Assembly: GCA_016744855.1 (NCBI GenBank) | Contig: JADGDO010000012.1 | Span: 1 to 64,000 of the forward strand | Length of the DNA stretch: 64,000 nt | Reading direction: 5' to 3' | Source: Candidatus Fermentibacteraceae bacterium | GTDB lineage: Bacteria > Fermentibacterota > Fermentibacteria > Fermentibacterales > JCC-6 | Shown here: piece after piece, positions 4,755-11,070 of the stretch | Layout of the letters: the number at the start of each line of letters is the position of its first letter | Position numbering within the stretch: position 1 is the first letter of the stretch | The notes under the pieces: generated by a model | Database searches by the model: none | What the model was told of the DNA's origin: nothing | Seen by the model: only the letters and a program-made list of their open reading frames with translations | Program-made: the position numbers and the translations under genes

Positions 4755-5096
4755 GTGAAAATTAAACAAGAGATTAAAGATGGGGTTATGGTTATTCGCT
4801 TAAGCGGTAAAGTGATAAGCGGACCAGATCTTATGGAGCTCAAAACAGTTTTTCAGACTGCTGTTAACAACGAGAAAGGCAATGTTCTTCTTGACCTCGG
4901 ACATGTAGCATGGATGGACAGTTCCGGTCTTGGAGTTCTTGTCAGTGGGCATACTTCTCTTACAAGAGAAGGCAGTAGAATGGCTATTTTGAATGCCACA
5001 AAAAAGATTCACGAGCTTTTCATCATCACAAAACTCATAACAATATTTGAGACCTTCACTGATGAAAGTGAAGCCCTTACCAGTCTTAAGGAATAG
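4755..5096 (+). CDS. STAS-domain anti-sigma factor antagonist (SpoIIAA/RsbV type)
   Basis: 113 residues, a single STAS domain. MDSSGLGVL around residue 55 carries the serine that is phosphorylated by the partner kinase in SpoIIAA/RsbV proteins. GTG start with a strong GAGGAGG 7 bases upstream. It opens a three-gene partner-switch set: antagonist, kinase (starting 2 bases after this stop) and a PP2C phosphatase fusion. An AT-rich stretch at 4700-4735 (TATACA at 4727) could be its promoter, but the -35 is weak. Confidence 0.93.
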   Translation: MKIKQEIKDGVMVIRLSGKVISGPDLMELKTVFQTAVNNEKGNVLLDLGHVAWMDSSGLGVLVSGHTSLTREGSRMAILNATKKIHELFIITKLITIFETFTDESEALTSLKE

Positions 5097-5098
5097 CC

Positions 5099-5515
5099 TT
5101 GCTTAAGGGAATAATTCTCAAGATACCCAGCGATGACACTATTGTAGAGACCATTCAGACCTTTGTCGAGAATATCGGTCTTACTGCCGGCGTTGCGGAA
5201 GAGGATGTCACCAGTTTGTCTATTGCCGTTATGGAAGTAGTTAAGAATGCCATGGAACACGGTAATGGAGGAGATCCAAAGAAACTTGTGACAATCTACA
5301 TTGATGTTTACTCCGGTAGATTACAGTTTATAGTCGACGATTGCGGTACCTGGCAGCCAGACTCCGAACTCGGACATGAGCCCGAGGAGGGAAAGGCATT
5401 GATCAGCAGTCGCGGTCGTGGAGTTCTCATCGCACGGAATCTTGCTCGTTGGTTGGATTACGGGTTGAACCCAGAAGGAAAAACCAGAGCGACCCTGATC
5501 TGGCCACTCACCTGA
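5099..5515 (+). CDS. RsbW/SpoIIAB-like serine kinase (HATPase_c_2)
   Basis: 138 residues, TTG start with AAGGA upstream. It has the GHKL ATPase motifs in order: N box NAMEHGNGGDP, G1 box DDCGTW, G2 box GRGVLIARNL. Family members bind either a sigma factor or the STAS antagonist and phosphorylate the antagonist. No sigma factor gene is adjacent, so the target may be encoded elsewhere or may not be a sigma factor. It lies between the STAS gene and the phosphatase fusion with almost no intergenic DNA. Confidence 0.92.
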   Translation: MLKGIILKIPSDDTIVETIQTFVENIGLTAGVAEEDVTSLSIAVMEVVKNAMEHGNGGDPKKLVTIYIDVYSGRLQFIVDDCGTWQPDSELGHEPEEGKALISSRGRGVLIARNLARWLDYGLNPEGKTRATLIWPLT

Positions 5516-5525
5516 CGGAGTATTG

Positions 5526-8500
5526 ATGGCCCACAGTTTTGAATTGCTTGTCTGGACGGACAGCTCTGTTCTTCCAGCAGGCGAGCGGTCTGTTGCGCTT
5601 TCTGAAGCCGGGAAACTAAGAGTTCCTGACTGGGCAGACGGCATGAGGCTTTCATTTGAATTCGGAGACTCAAAACCGGATGCTGCTTTGCTTTTATTGG
5701 GCACGACTCCTTCTCCCCAGGCTCGTTTTCTATTTTTCTCCCTTTTCAGAGCGGGAGTTCCGGTAGGTGCTCTTGTTCTCGGGGAACCCTCCTTTTCAGA
5801 ACCAATATTTGCCAAGCTTGAAGAGTGGACCCGGTGCTGGCCTTTCAAAGACCAGGGGCAACTTGTTTCAATAATTCACAACCTTGTTCAGGAGTGGATT
5901 TCCGGAATAAATAGAACAATGACATCCTATCCATACGGGGAAGACCTAATTCGTTCCTGGAATGGTGTTGCCGGTGAATCTGTTGACAGAGACAGTCTGA
6001 TAACTGCTTCTAGTATTCTCCGAAGCAGAGGTTTTGTCTGTGTCTCTGGGCCTCCCGGCGCAGGAAAAACAACCCTGGCAAGACTTCTTCTTATGGAGGC
6101 TGCAGACGAGGGACTTGTTCCTCTGGAACTGATTGCATCAGATGTTAATTCGAACCTTGTGGAGATGAAACTCAGAGGTCCGGACGATTGTGCTCTTCTC
6201 TTTGATATAGACGCTATAAGACGCATGACGGTTATTCATCCTCTTCACCTGTTTCTCTCCGCATTCAATATTATCCTGAAGTCTACCGATTCAAGAAGAA
6301 TGGTCATTCTCACCTCTTCCGACCCAAGAATTATCGGCTTATTCTCCTTGTTCGGAGATGCTCATGTTGAGTTACCTTCTCCGGAAACAAACAGACAATG
6401 GAGAGTGGAGCAGGGGCAGAGAGCTCTCGAAACATTCAGGAGTCTTGATCTTCTTTCAAAGGCTGAACTTGTTCTTCTTTCTCTTTTTGAACCCATTGTT
6501 TCTGAAGCTATTTTTAAGAGCTCTCTTCTCGAGATATGGTCCAGATTGCATTTCTTGCTCAGAGAGAACTTTCCATCTTCACAAACGCTTGAAGAAATGT
6601 ATGAAGATTCCAAAGCCAGGAAAGGTATTTCTCCCTTCAGACGACTCATGATTAATGGAGAAATGCATCTCTGCAGTGGAGACACTCTGCTTCTTGATGC
6701 AGTCGACACTGGAATGGCAGAACTATCTGGAGCAGGAAGCCCTCTAGTCAGAGTTGTTATGGAAACACTTCTCAATGGTGAGAATCCTGAACAGAGAAGA
6801 GCCGGTTACAACATTGCACACATGTACAGACACCTGTCATCTTCAGAAAAATCAAGACTTCTCTTCACAGCTTCGAGGGAATCACAGATTGATGTTCTCA
6901 ATGACTTTTTTGCCATGCTTCATGCGGATAAGGGAGCATTTGACAGAGCTGCTGAAGGTTTGTGCCGTCATATACTGGAATCCGGGTCTGTTGAAACAAG
7001 AACGGCTCTTGCAAAGGCACAAGGTGTTCCCTGGCTCCGTAAAGACCACTACTTCAGAGATCTTGCTGTTACAACTTCAACTGATCCGGATGATTCCGTT
7101 CGTGCCGGTCTTCTATACAGCATTGATATGTGGGGAATTTCAGGAGACCCCGGAGGCTTCATGGAAAAGCTTCTTCAGGATCGGGCACCTGCTGTCTCCA
7201 GGATTGCTCTCTACTATCTCGGTCGGAAGTTTCCCAATCTTAACACACGGGAAATGGAAATCGTTAATTCGGCAATGGATGGTGGCGAAAATGATCAGCT
7301 GATGCATCTTGTTTTCGGCTTGATGAACAGGCAGCTGGGCGAATTTGAGGAAGAATCCTGTGATCTGCTTTGGTTGCTTATGCAACGTTTGCCAGAAGGC
7401 GGGCGGGGGCTTGTTGCTTCTAGTATCGGTGCCAGGATAAGATTTTTTGGTAACACAATAAGAGATATGCTCTTCTCTGATATTTCTGAAAATGATATAA
7501 GAACCGTTGCTCAGTGTATGCTGATGAACTATCAGGATCTCCGGATATCTGAAAAATCAATTCTCTGGGAGCTTCTTTCCAGACACATGCCTTCCAGTGT
7601 CGAGATGGCCGCAATGGTTCTCCCGTACATAAGAATTCTTGATGATTCGGAGCAGAATGAGCTTGTCAGAATTGCTCTTGCCTCTGAAAGGTATGGAGCT
7701 AGAGAAGCTCTTTCTCAACTTCTTGCAGGAGGTAGGATTGACGTTGCTGCAATTGCAATTGATGTTGTTAAATTGCTTCTGAAGGAAGGTTCTGTTGAAG
7801 AGAGATCCCGACTTCCATGGTTCATTCTATGGAACAGAACTTCTATATCTGAGGATGCATCTTTACTACTCCAACAGCTCGCGAAGGATGCAGATCCATC
7901 TGTAAGGAAGGCAGTTGCACTTGGAATACATCGCCTCGGATTGATGGGGGAATGGGATACTGACCTTCTGGGTGAGCTGGCGCTGGATGGTGAAAGATCA
8001 GTAAGAGCTGCAGCAGGAGAAGCCCTAGCAGAGTTTTCCAGCCCCGGGGATATTCCTCTTCAGATTACAGTTCTAATTCAAGACAAGGATCCAACTGTCA
8101 GAATGGCCATTCTGCGCGGGGTTAGCAGTTCCCCCTTCCTGGAAGCAGGTGACAGGGCAGAGTTCTTCCTTAAGACTCTTGAAGATCACGACGCATCGGT
8201 CAGACTTCAGACGATCGGAGCAATAGAGAAGCTTTCCAACCTTGGAGGCATGCCTGGTCTTGTAGAAAAAATTACAGTTCTTCTAAGCGATAGATCAGAG
8301 AATGTCAGAAATGCAGCTGCCCGCCTTGTTACCAGCCATCCTTCGATTACTACATCTCGAGAGCTACGAGAAAAACTACCTGACCTTTACCTGGGAAGAC
8401 TTACCAGTGGAGAAACGCTTGCTGAGGAATTGAGTACTGCGAGGGAAATACAAATGGGTCTGCTTCCAGCTGAAGCACCAAGATATGAGAATTACAGTAT

Positions 8501-9140
8501 TGCTGTGTACTACAATCCTGCAAAAGAGGTTGGTGGTGATTACTACGATTTCTTCAACCTCGAAGGTGGGAATCTTGGCTTAGCTGTCGCAGATGTTGCA
8601 GGTAAAGGAATTCCCGCTGCGCTCACTATGGCAGGCATGAAAGGTACTCTTGGGGCTAGTGTAAGAAGCCTTTTCGATATTGGTCAGGTTATGGCGAGAG
8701 TAAACAGTGAATTAACTGTTGAAGGAGAAGTTACCGGTCTGGTTGGTCTCTTCTACAGTGTTCTTGATACCCAGAACGGTCTCCTTACTTACTGTAATGC
8801 AGGGCATAATCCTCCTCTTCTTGTTTCAAGAACCGGCGAGACTAAGTTTCTTGAAGAAGGTGGCCTGCTCATGGGAGTTTTGAAGAATGCAGAATACATC
8901 CATGAGACTGTGCAGATACATCCGGGTGATGTCATTGTTCTTTACACGGACGGAATTACCGAGACTATGGACAGCAATGATGTCGAGTTTGATGTATCAG
9001 GACTTTCAAAAGCGGTTCTTGAATACAGAGATCTAAGTGCTGAACAAATAGCTACACGTGTTCTAAAAGCCATGAATGCGCATGGGCAGGGATCAGTCCA
9101 GGCTGATGACAGAACTCTAGTTGTTATCAAGCATCGCTGA
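5526..9140 (+). CDS. P-loop / HEAT-repeat / SpoIIE-type PP2C phosphatase fusion
   Basis: 1204 residues from ATG 5526 (a TTG lies one codon earlier). Residues 1-140 form a domain I do not recognise. At about 174-183 there is a Walker A motif, GPPGAGKTT, followed by LLFDID as a possible Walker B, giving a STAND- or AAA-like ATPase. Residues about 520-940 contain HEAT-type repeats recognisable by D-x-x-x-SVR signatures (DADPSVRKAV, DGERSVRAAA, DKDPTVRMAI, DHDASVRLQT, DRSENVRNAA). The C-terminal 240 residues are a PP2C/SpoIIE phosphatase: EVGGDYYDFF, DVAGKGIPAALTMA, NAGHNPP and YTDGITETMD supply the metal-binding acids. It should dephosphorylate the STAS protein encoded two genes upstream, with ATP binding and HEAT scaffolding controlling activity. 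No membrane segment is seen. Confidence 0.9.
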   Translation: MAHSFELLVWTDSSVLPAGERSVALSEAGKLRVPDWADGMRLSFEFGDSKPDAALLLLGTTPSPQARFLFFSLFRAGVPVGALVLGEPSFSEPIFAKLEEWTRCWPFKDQGQLVSIIHNLVQEWISGINRTMTSYPYGEDLIRSWNGVAGESVDRDSLITASSILRSRGFVCVSGPPGAGKTTLARLLLMEAADEGLVPLELIASDVNSNLVEMKLRGPDDCALLFDIDAIRRMTVIHPLHLFLSAFNIILKSTDSRRMVILTSSDPRIIGLFSLFGDAHVELPSPETNRQWRVEQGQRALETFRSLDLLSKAELVLLSLFEPIVSEAIFKSSLLEIWSRLHFLLRENFPSSQTLEEMYEDSKARKGISPFRRLMINGEMHLCSGDTLLLDAVDTGMAELSGAGSPLVRVVMETLLNGENPEQRRAGYNIAHMYRHLSSSEKSRLLFTASRESQIDVLNDFFAMLHADKGAFDRAAEGLCRHILESGSVETRTALAKAQGVPWLRKDHYFRDLAVTTSTDPDDSVRAGLLYSIDMWGISGDPGGFMEKLLQDRAPAVSRIALYYLGRKFPNLNTREMEIVNSAMDGGENDQLMHLVFGLMNRQLGEFEEESCDLLWLLMQRLPEGGRGLVASSIGARIRFFGNTIRDMLFSDISENDIRTVAQCMLMNYQDLRISEKSILWELLSRHMPSSVEMAAMVLPYIRILDDSEQNELVRIALASERYGAREALSQLLAGGRIDVAAIAIDVVKLLLKEGSVEERSRLPWFILWNRTSISEDASLLLQQLAKDADPSVRKAVALGIHRLGLMGEWDTDLLGELALDGERSVRAAAGEALAEFSSPGDIPLQITVLIQDKDPTVRMAILRGVSSSPFLEAGDRAEFFLKTLEDHDASVRLQTIGAIEKLSNLGGMPGLVEKITVLLSDRSENVRNAAARLVTSHPSITTSRELREKLPDLYLGRLTSGETLAEELSTAREIQMGLLPAEAPRYENYSIAVYYNPAKEVGGDYYDFFNLEGGNLGLAVADVAGKGIPAALTMAGMKGTLGASVRSLFDIGQVMARVNSELTVEGEVTGLVGLFYSVLDTQNGLLTYCNAGHNPPLLVSRTGETKFLEEGGLLMGVLKNAEYIHETVQIHPGDVIVLYTDGITETMDSNDVEFDVSGLSKAVLEYRDLSAEQIATRVLKAMNAHGQGSVQADDRTLVVIKHR

Positions 9141-9154
9141 AGGGGAGGACAATT

Positions 9155-9943
9155 CTGAAAACACCATTATTTATTCTTTCGGATTTTGGGCACAGGGACA
9201 CTTACGTTGCTCAGATGAAGGCAGCAATCCTTTCTTTTTCAGGGTATGACACACCGGTAATTGATCTTACTCACGAGGTTGAGCCGGGCAATGTTCTTCA
9301 TGGGGCTTTTCACCTGCGTGCTGCCCTTCCGCACCTTCCCGAGGGTTCGGTAACTCTCGCTGTTGTTGACCCTGGCGTGGGAAGCAGCAGGCTGGGACTT
9401 GTCGCTTTGTGGAGAGGACGGTTTATTGTAGCCCCGGATAACGGTTTAGTTTCGATGCTGCCCGGCCCACTAAAAACATGGCAGCTGCCGCATGATGATT
9501 CATCCTCTTCCAAAACTTTTCACGGTAGGGATGTTTTTGCTGAATGTGCAGCAAAAGTGGCAATTAACCCGGGTTGGACTTCATTTCTTGAGGAACTTGA
9601 AAAACCTGTTTTACTTCCTCAACCCGAGACATCAGTTAAGGGAGAGTTGCTTTACACAAGTGTTTTGCATGTGGACAATTTCGGTAACTGCATTCTTGCT
9701 GTTGCCAGCGATGATCTGCGTGAGTTCACCCCCGATTTTCTGACAACAGACTCGACCCCTGATGAGATACCCCTGGTTGCAGTTGATTCCTACTATCAGT
9801 CACCTGAATCCGACTCAGTTCTTCTTGTACTTGGAAGCCAGGGTTTTTATGAACTTGCACTTAATGGAAGATCCGCATCAGAGCACCTTGATTTGCTGCC
9901 TGGATGCTCTATAACATTGATAAGTAAAAGGGGCAATTTTTAA
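9155..9943 (+). CDS. SAM hydroxide adenosyltransferase (DUF62 family), probable CTG start
   Basis: 262 residues if read from CTG 9155. The first ATG, at 9215, would remove KTPLFILSDFGHRDTYVAQ, which contains the family's N-terminal signature (LLTDFG-x-x-D-x-YVG-x-MK). AGGGGAGG at 9141-9148 is a strong ribosome binding site 6 bases from the CTG, and there is no ATG, GTG or TTG between it and 9215. ATT at 9152 is the other possibility. Further motifs are DLTHEVEPGN, VVDPGVGSSR and the FHGRDVF segment. Enzymes of this family hydrolyse S-adenosylmethionine to adenosine and methionine. The stop overlaps the next ATG (TAATG). Confidence 0.85.
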   Translation: MKTPLFILSDFGHRDTYVAQMKAAILSFSGYDTPVIDLTHEVEPGNVLHGAFHLRAALPHLPEGSVTLAVVDPGVGSSRLGLVALWRGRFIVAPDNGLVSMLPGPLKTWQLPHDDSSSSKTFHGRDVFAECAAKVAINPGWTSFLEELEKPVLLPQPETSVKGELLYTSVLHVDNFGNCILAVASDDLREFTPDFLTTDSTPDEIPLVAVDSYYQSPESDSVLLVLGSQGFYELALNGRSASEHLDLLPGCSITLISKRGNF

Positions 9944-11070
9944 TGAAGCACATAGGTTTTCTGTTACACTTCTATCAACCGCCAACACAGGATCCCGAAA
10001 TAGTTAAAAGGATAGACCGGGAGTGTTACAGACCTCTTTTCCAACTTCTGCTTGAAACCGGTGTTGAAGTTACTGTTAACATGAACTATTCTCTTACAGA
10101 ACAACTCGCCCTCTACGCTCCTGAAACGCTGAAGCTTGCTTCGAAATTAACCTGCTGCAGTTTTACTTCGAGTGCAGCATATCATCCCATCTTGCCACTC
10201 ATACCACGCAGTGAATCTGTCCGCCAGATTCAGTTAAATGATGAAGGTAACAGTGAATTGATTGGAGAAGTCTACCGTCCGAAAGGTCTCTTTCCTCCCG
10301 AGATGGCTCTCGATGAGGAAACGATTCAACTTGTCGGTTCAATGGGCTATAAATGGTTGATTACTGATGATGTGCCCTGGGTACATTCGCATTCAGATGT
10401 TCCTTCCGACTGGATCCCGGCTTCAGAGGGAACTGGGGTTTTTCTAAGAAGCAACTTCTGGTCAAATCTGATCTCGTTTCACGGTGGAAGCGGTTCTGAA
10501 ATGGTTGACAGAATGGTTCGAGATCTTCATTCCTGGTCAGGAGAAGAGGATTCCTATGTTATTTTGGCAATGGATGGAGAGACATTCGGACACCACAGAG
10601 ATGGTGCTATTGATTCATTCTTGCGACCGTTTTTTGAACAGATCGTTTCAAGAGAGAGAATTCGCATTTCTTCCCTTGACAGGATTTATAAAGAATTTCC
10701 ATTGCGAGAGTCTCCAGTTGTCTCTGGAAGCTGGTCTACAACAGGTGCTGACCTTGATGCCGGTGACCCATTCCCTCTATGGAACAGCTCCGGGAATACT
10801 GATCACCAGGCTTACTGGAAGCTCTTGAACTTTGTTTTGGAAGAGTGCAGAAAATCAAGTCCCGAGGGGGTTGCAGATACGGTGGATAAGATGTTATACT
10901 CCTGCCCTCTGTGGTGGGCCTCGCCGGGCCGTGAATCTTATTCACAGGTTCGAAGGGGTATTTTAATGATTATTGAAGCTGCCCTGCAAGTAATTACAGA
11001 CAGGGCACTCCTTGACAAAGTCATGGAGTTGGCTGGTCGAATTCCGGCCATGGCGCGAAAGGATAGATAA
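9943..11070 (+). CDS. Glycoside hydrolase family 57-like protein
   Basis: 375 residues. It begins with IGFLLHFYQPP, the conserved first strand and HxxQP motif of GH57 alpha-glucan enzymes. PPEMALDE near residue 108 matches the motif carrying the nucleophile glutamate, and AMDGETFGHH near residue 208 matches the motif with the catalytic aspartate. GH57 members act as amylases, 4-alpha-glucanotransferases or branching enzymes. The precise activity cannot be assigned. No signal peptide, so it should act on cytoplasmic glucan. It overlaps both neighbours by one base (TAATG) and is part of a tight operon. Confidence 0.82.
   Translation: MKHIGFLLHFYQPPTQDPEIVKRIDRECYRPLFQLLLETGVEVTVNMNYSLTEQLALYAPETLKLASKLTCCSFTSSAAYHPILPLIPRSESVRQIQLNDEGNSELIGEVYRPKGLFPPEMALDEETIQLVGSMGYKWLITDDVPWVHSHSDVPSDWIPASEGTGVFLRSNFWSNLISFHGGSGSEMVDRMVRDLHSWSGEEDSYVILAMDGETFGHHRDGAIDSFLRPFFEQIVSRERIRISSLDRIYKEFPLRESPVVSGSWSTTGADLDAGDPFPLWNSSGNTDHQAYWKLLNFVLEECRKSSPEGVADTVDKMLYSCPLWWASPGRESYSQVRRGILMIIEAALQVITDRALLDKVMELAGRIPAMARKDR

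Follow-up and report, generated by a model that had tools for sequence, protein, structure and literature searches.

The window analysed here (64,000 nucleotides, positions 1–64,000 of contig JADGDO010000012.1, assembly GCA_016744855.1, from a Candidatus Fermentibacteraceae bacterium) encodes at 5526–9140 a protein of 1204 amino acids (aa) that, judged by its sequence, is a member of the SpoIIE/RsbU phosphatase family with a novel input; the family is known and the variant of the architecture is new. From the N- to the C-terminus, the protein comprises an N-terminal domain, an nSTAND3-like nucleoside triphosphatase (NTPase), a helical/HEAT solenoid, an RsbU-type linker, and a SpoIIE PP2C domain. 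The sample of 385 genomes consisted of 42 from the phylum Fermentibacterota (Candidatus Sabulitectum/Fermentibacteria) and 343 from elsewhere, and the phosphatase was found in 38 of the 42. The domains, the conservation of the catalytic and linker residues, the clustering of the gene with those of a STAS antagonist and an RsbW-like kinase, and the inheritance of the cluster as a unit are directly supported. By analogy with described systems, the protein is probably dedicated to the adjacent STAS/RsbW pair as a partner-switching phosphatase whose activity a STAND-like NTPase and a HEAT receptor gate.

Domain architecture of the phosphatase

The open reading frame (ORF) fits 5526–9140 exactly, with an alternative start at the TTG at 5523; all its domains and the two partner genes described below lie on the forward strand. 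The initial annotation had described a P-loop, a HEAT array, and a PP2C domain joined in one protein, and the domain search bears this out, as Pfam recovers nSTAND3 (residues 155–205, E 2e-8), HEAT and HEAT_2 (E 4e-15 and 7e-15, best stretches at approximately 776–835) and SpoIIE (1014–1203, E 7e-44) in this order. Each of the four families also matches all 24 aligned homologues (E ≤ 0.001).

The SpoIIE/PP2C domain (approximately residues 1014–1204; 8565–9137) reaches 150 bits with PF07228 against a cut-off of 25. Its metal motifs comprise D1005, D1023, D1142, D1194, and D1195, and include what we take to be the equivalents of SpoIIE D628, D746, and D795, assigned by motif. The motifs are complete, as claimed earlier, and their aspartates, D1023, D1142, D1194, and D1195 among them, are invariant in 24 of 24 homologues. 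In SpoIIE itself, the three aspartates named above bind the metal (PMC5468089). The PP2C domain is preceded by an RsbU/RssB-type linker helix, LAEELSTAREIQMGLLP (approximately residues 960–985; 8403–8480), in which E968, L969, A972, R973, I975, and Q976 are invariant among the 24 homologues; the assignment comes from sequence, the helix being modelled at low confidence. The closest solved relative is the receiver-PP2C protein RssB (3eq2), the phmmer match to which begins at residue 946.

The P-loop NTPase occupies approximately residues 153–300 (5982–6425). Its Walker A motif GPPGAGKTT (residues 175–183) satisfies the Gx4GK[ST] pattern and is intact rather than degenerate, and G175, G180, K181, and T182 are unchanged across all 24 aligned homologues, as are D227, D229, R232, R233, and S265. 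In the Walker-B-like sequence ALLFDID (223–229), set against the consensus h4D[DE], D227 and D229 are invariant and the residue after D227 is non-acidic; the Walker B motif of Avs5, an nSTAND3 protein, is likewise off consensus (PMC12931631). By Pfam score the NTPase belongs to nSTAND3 (PF20720): the window protein scores 34.4 bits against a cut-off of 27.2, all 20 members scanned match the family in their NTPase, where no other family reaches a better E-value, and 30 of the 42 phylum genomes exceed the curated cut-off, with model positions 4–129 of 155 covered in the best members. Because the NTPase scores as nSTAND3 while the order of domains is not that of STAND proteins, the whole protein is, by its sequence, STAND-like and not a STAND protein of the usual kind.

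The helical solenoid with HEAT repeats extends over approximately residues 421–948 (6786–8370). The pattern D/E/S-x(0-2)-[SATN]VR occurs in it six times, at residues 522, 790, 823, 855, 889, and 924; in 2000 shuffled versions of the protein, it occurs 0.67 times on average and 5 times at most. In the model of residues 419–1204, predicted from four sequences (the window protein and those of loci L034, L035, and L036), the stretch of approximately 421–956 is all-helical with about 38 helices at moderate to low confidence, and on this basis the solenoid is modelled as about 500 residues long; the predicted local distance difference test (pLDDT) values by blocks are mostly 50–92 between approximately residues 470 and 945. 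The initial annotation, which gave at least six SVR-type repeats, thus underestimated the solenoid as modelled. The best matches of the solenoid model in the PDB (Foldseek) are HEAT chains of PP2A A-subunits (E 3e-7), weak ones, with template modelling (TM) scores of 0.26–0.31 in the top ranks.

The N-terminal domain (approximately residues 1–135; 5526–5930) is modelled as alternating strands and helices at low confidence, and its 135 residues match no Pfam family. The spacing of strands and helices had suggested a receiver (REC) domain. This identity was dropped, as hhalign gave a probability of 0.1–0.35% against 28 receiver domains from the window's genome and 100% in a half-against-half control.

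The three-gene cluster and its distribution

The phosphatase gene follows the genes that the initial annotation had named as a STAS antagonist and an RsbW-like kinase, and Pfam confirms both. The first (4755–5096; STAS, E 2.5e-13; NCBIfam ant_ant_sig above the cut-off) encodes an RsbV/SpoIIAA-like anti-sigma-factor antagonist with the phospho-acceptor region WMDSSGLG, the DSSG of which is invariant in 31 of 31 aligned sequences. The second (5099–5515; HATPase_c_2, E 3e-18) encodes an RsbW/SpoIIAB-like kinase of the GHKL type with intact N-box (E..KN...HGN), G1 (D.G.W), and G2 (RGRG) boxes and with core residues conserved in 31 of 31 sequences. Synteny of the three genes is conserved, both partner genes lying directly upstream of the phosphatase in 30 of 32 neighbourhoods, with the other two (L057, L059) ending at a contig edge; the gaps between the signalling genes are −1 to 31 bases (11 loci measured).

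A search with residues 1–958 found the phosphatase in 37 of the 42 phylum genomes, and the profile search added G002, where only the last 224 residues lie on the contig and score 422 bits; among the matches listed, the PP2C domains of other phyla reach no more than 283 bits. The phosphatase is missing from G014 (98% complete), G040 (92%), G018 (61%), and G021 (66%). Thirty proteins (29 of the 32 loci plus the window) are 1184–1205 residues long and free of internal stops, and homologues share 36–82% identity. In one genome, G027 (71% complete), the phosphatase gene at L058 (G027:C3) is in pieces with a stop, which implies a pseudogene or misassembly, and the neighbouring genes are present.

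An RsbW match at the locus (E 3e-15 or better) accompanies the phosphatase in 35 of the 38 genomes, and in the other three (G002, G006, G031) the contig ends. In the four phosphatase-less genomes, RsbW matches reach an E-value of 1e-7 at best and fall in frames of at least 546 aa. A few short frames elsewhere, e.g., at G031:C288 and G038:C142, match PF13581 weakly. SpoIIE (E 1e-10) had no match in G014, G021, and G040, and G018 keeps three. Since RsbW tracks the phosphatase, and three of the four genomes without the phosphatase also lack SpoIIE matches, the pathway appears to be retained or lost in its entirety. Two genomes depart from a single node, as a long frame in each of G016 and G003 contains another strong RsbW-like domain, which in G016 is next to a second STAS. 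STAS, RsbW-like, and SpoIIE domains are clustered at G016:C5:147614-148977, and RsbW-like and SpoIIE domains lie close together at G003:C69:719-1983; these clusters suggest second, separate partner-switch modules.

In the window's genome, PF01740 matches only the STAS protein of the cluster (STAS_2 proteins were not searched for), and only one of four PF13581 matches is a small free-standing RsbW, the others lying in frames of 298–665 aa. The genome encodes three SpoIIE proteins including the 1204-aa phosphatase and, with a single Pfam STAS protein and a single free RsbW, all three may feed one switch. The other two phosphatases (851 aa, L140:3925-6477, G000:C19; 762 aa, L141:3416-5701, G000:C107) have GAF domains and N-terminal halves that appear hydrophobic by eye. 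An extracytoplasmic function (ECF)-like sigma gene (184 aa, L140:8030-8584) lies on the opposite strand, some 1.5 kb beyond where the 851-aa phosphatase starts. Upstream of the 762-aa phosphatase, with a HisS-like gene between them, there is a long ORF (L141:59-1957), which by eye resembles the final part of a STAND-type regulator rich in repeats.

The NTPase module was not found in the 343 genomes from the phyla sampled outside Fermentibacterota; as these phyla were only sampled, the same architecture may occur in them. With the full-length profile (two candidates scored per genome), matches outside the phylum start at position 953 or later, i.e., in the linker and PP2C, among the matches listed. 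The profile of residues 1–480 matches 36 genomes of the phylum and three outside it, the latter only over a P-loop stretch of about 37–76 positions (E 3e-6 to 9e-6). At E 1e-8, nSTAND3 was detected, among 146 genomes, in 30 of the phylum, in one outsider (G100), and in none of 14 control genomes. A wider scan of genome contigs gave three loci, all from the same phylum. Nine long SpoIIE proteins of other groups, obtained from 9 of 12 fetched loci, differ in what accompanies SpoIIE: three carry HAMP, three GAF, one GAF with PAS and a solute-binding domain, and one an RsbW-like ATPase, while in the ninth SpoIIE is the only domain recognised. NTPase or HEAT domains are absent from all nine. This agrees with the expectation of HAMP, GAF, or PAS as the usual inputs of such phosphatases, expressed in the initial annotation and in line with PMC12143880. 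HEAT, AAA, NACHT, and STAND never occur as whole words in the main text of an article on bacterial PP2C domain architectures (PMC12088040), and the literature search gave no paper dealing, by its title or the start of its abstract, with an NTPase-HEAT-PP2C protein or with partner switching in this phylum.

The flanking gene order is kept across three family-level groups with small losses. Upstream there are a 4Fe-4S protein (named by eye), a thioredoxin-like protein, and GT2; downstream there are an S-adenosyl-L-methionine (SAM) hydroxide adenosyltransferase, GH57, a nucleotidyltransferase, a phosphotransferase, and tryptophanyl- and cysteinyl-tRNA synthetases (TrpRS and CysRS; the last four named by eye). 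L042 lacks GT2, L052 the SAM enzyme, and L043 GH57, whereas L040 and L049 are without the genes upstream of STAS. In the window, the SAM hydroxide adenosyltransferase and the GH57 glycoside hydrolase are encoded at 9215–11070, and the majority of the 32 neighbourhoods have both of them after the signalling genes. A scan for promoters and terminators returned counts no higher than chance.

Proposed mechanism and its alternatives

The three genes would form a partner-switching module, in which the RsbW-like kinase would phosphorylate the STAS protein and hold the target, probably a sigma factor encoded elsewhere, and the 1204-residue protein, acting as a dedicated cytoplasmic phosphatase, would dephosphorylate the STAS protein, so that the target would be freed. 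The HEAT solenoid would serve as a ligand sensor binding a protein or a large assembly, and the nSTAND3-like NTPase as a latch, in which NTP binding would set and hold the on or off state. Both roles are proposed by analogy with Avs5, which has a repeat sensor after its nSTAND3 domain and requires Walker A (PMC12931631). The change would pass via the solenoid to the RsbU-type linker helix, upon which two PP2C domains would pair and the metal sites would be completed. In RsbU-type phosphatases, linker helices pair and thereby dimerise the PP2C domains (PMC12143880), and on activation of RsbU and SpoIIE, switch helices move and the metal site is completed (PMC12143880, PMC5468089). In this scheme, we infer the phosphatase and kinase activities, the gating by NTP, the role of HEAT in binding a ligand, and a sigma factor as the target. 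We put forward more tentatively the broader notion that the protein may represent a non-immune STAND-type receptor of reversed order, which would read a protein or a large assembly and, through PP2C partner switching, translate this into a transcriptional decision at the global level; encoded in the operon, it would be the input of the single STAS/RsbW node in most genomes of the phylum.

Several observations weigh against the proposed gated phosphatase. The order of domains is reversed in comparison to usual STAND proteins, whose effector is N-terminal. In Avs5, the conserved Arg438 after Walker B aids function (PMC12931631), and in the window protein the invariant S265 seems, when placed by eye, to replace this arginine, so that this protein may depart from the usual STAND cycle or in its hydrolysis of NTP. 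The STAND-type resemblance noticed in the initial annotation is supported in part, by the family assignment of the NTPase. The models of the NTPase region (mean pLDDT 37.5 for residues 1–490) and of the PP2C domain (pLDDT of about 20–40) are unreliable and show no contact between HEAT and PP2C. Finally, of the nine Sigma70_r2 genes in the window's genome, none is on C11, the contig that holds the window, and tblastn with five of the nine sigma proteins gave no hit either in the window or across the 32 neighbourhoods, consistent with the earlier remark that no sigma factor is adjacent.

The negative result of these five sigma queries also favours a switch acting on a target other than a sigma factor, and partner-switch modules in some bacteria do control such targets. 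We regard this as rather unlikely here, as the nine Sigma70_r2 genes elsewhere in the genome, two of which encode proteins (280 and 291 aa) that contain regions 1.2, 2, 3, and 4, make an unlinked sigma target available.

Another, unlikely, explanation is that the NTPase is a constitutive element of assembly or a scaffold, which would bind NTP but run through no signal cycle, and that the HEAT array mainly brings the phosphatase to a fixed partner or substrate, in the manner of the A subunit of PP2A, with regulation left to the two GAF-bearing phosphatases. The PP2A A-subunit chains at the top of the structural matches, the apparent absence of the conserved nSTAND3 arginine, and the presence of these two SpoIIE phosphatases in the same genome are in its favour. 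However, the PP2A matches mirror HEAT folds in general, and the Walker A residues and two aspartates of the Walker B region are invariant across homologues of 36–82% identity, pointing to a role for the handling of nucleotides.

A defence or conflict-type STAND sensor with a transcriptional output, in which recognition of phage or damage would lead to a sigma-driven response, is very improbable: Avs5 has an NTPase of the nSTAND3 type (PMC12931631) and PADLOC gave a weak match to HEAT-ARM_XIII (E 9e-6) with P-loop matches and nothing else, but the gene, kept in 38 of 42 genomes within a fixed housekeeping block and with collinear homologues, is unlike mobile, fast-changing defence genes, no relatives were found in plasmids (residues 1–958), phages (residues 1–480), or viral contigs (alignment of residues 1–480), and the assignment was rejected on the phylum-wide synteny.

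Comparison with known systems

The long HEAT solenoid serving a Ser/Thr phosphatase is reminiscent of the PP2A scaffold subunit A (PR65). In PP2A, however, the phosphatase belongs to an unrelated family and the scaffold is a separate chain; given a weak model and low TM scores, the likeness is an analogy only. The protein shares with nSTAND3-containing STAND NTPases such as Avs5 (PMC12931631) an nSTAND3-like P-loop domain followed by a helical repeat region. Unlike Avs5, whose type of effector is N-terminal and of the Sir2 type, the protein described here has a PP2C effector located C-terminally after the repeats, seems to lack the conserved arginine, and is encoded phylum-wide in a housekeeping block. 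The combination of an NTPase switch with a long protein-binding solenoid is better known from immune sensors than from stress-response phosphatases and, if the proposed gating is true, STAND switches would be tied to gene regulation outside immunity.

The gene cluster corresponds to RsbU-RsbV-RsbW partner switching in that the phosphatase is accompanied by a GHKL kinase and by a STAS protein that has the phospho-acceptor serine, with the motifs retained in 31 of 31 sequences. It differs from many such clusters, in which a sigma gene is common though not universal, as the five sigma queries found none here. With one STAS protein, one free RsbW, and three phosphatases, the genome would offer a simple natural system for the summing of several inputs at one switch. 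The phosphatase is not a one-off fusion, since it sits in a three-gene set conserved in a little-known phylum.

The phosphatase shares with RsbU, RssB, and SpoIIE the C-terminal SpoIIE PP2C domain with complete metal ligands, the LAxEL..AR.IQ linker, and the STAS and RsbW genes alongside. Its input, an NTPase with a HEAT solenoid, is distinct from the PAS, GAF, HAMP, receiver, or RsbU N-domain inputs described in PMC12143880, where PPM phosphatases were proposed to take exchangeable sensor modules of these kinds via a shared linker. If the reading of a gated phosphatase is true, a STAND-like NTPase and HEAT array on the same linker would add to this repertoire a class of input able to read proteins or assemblies.

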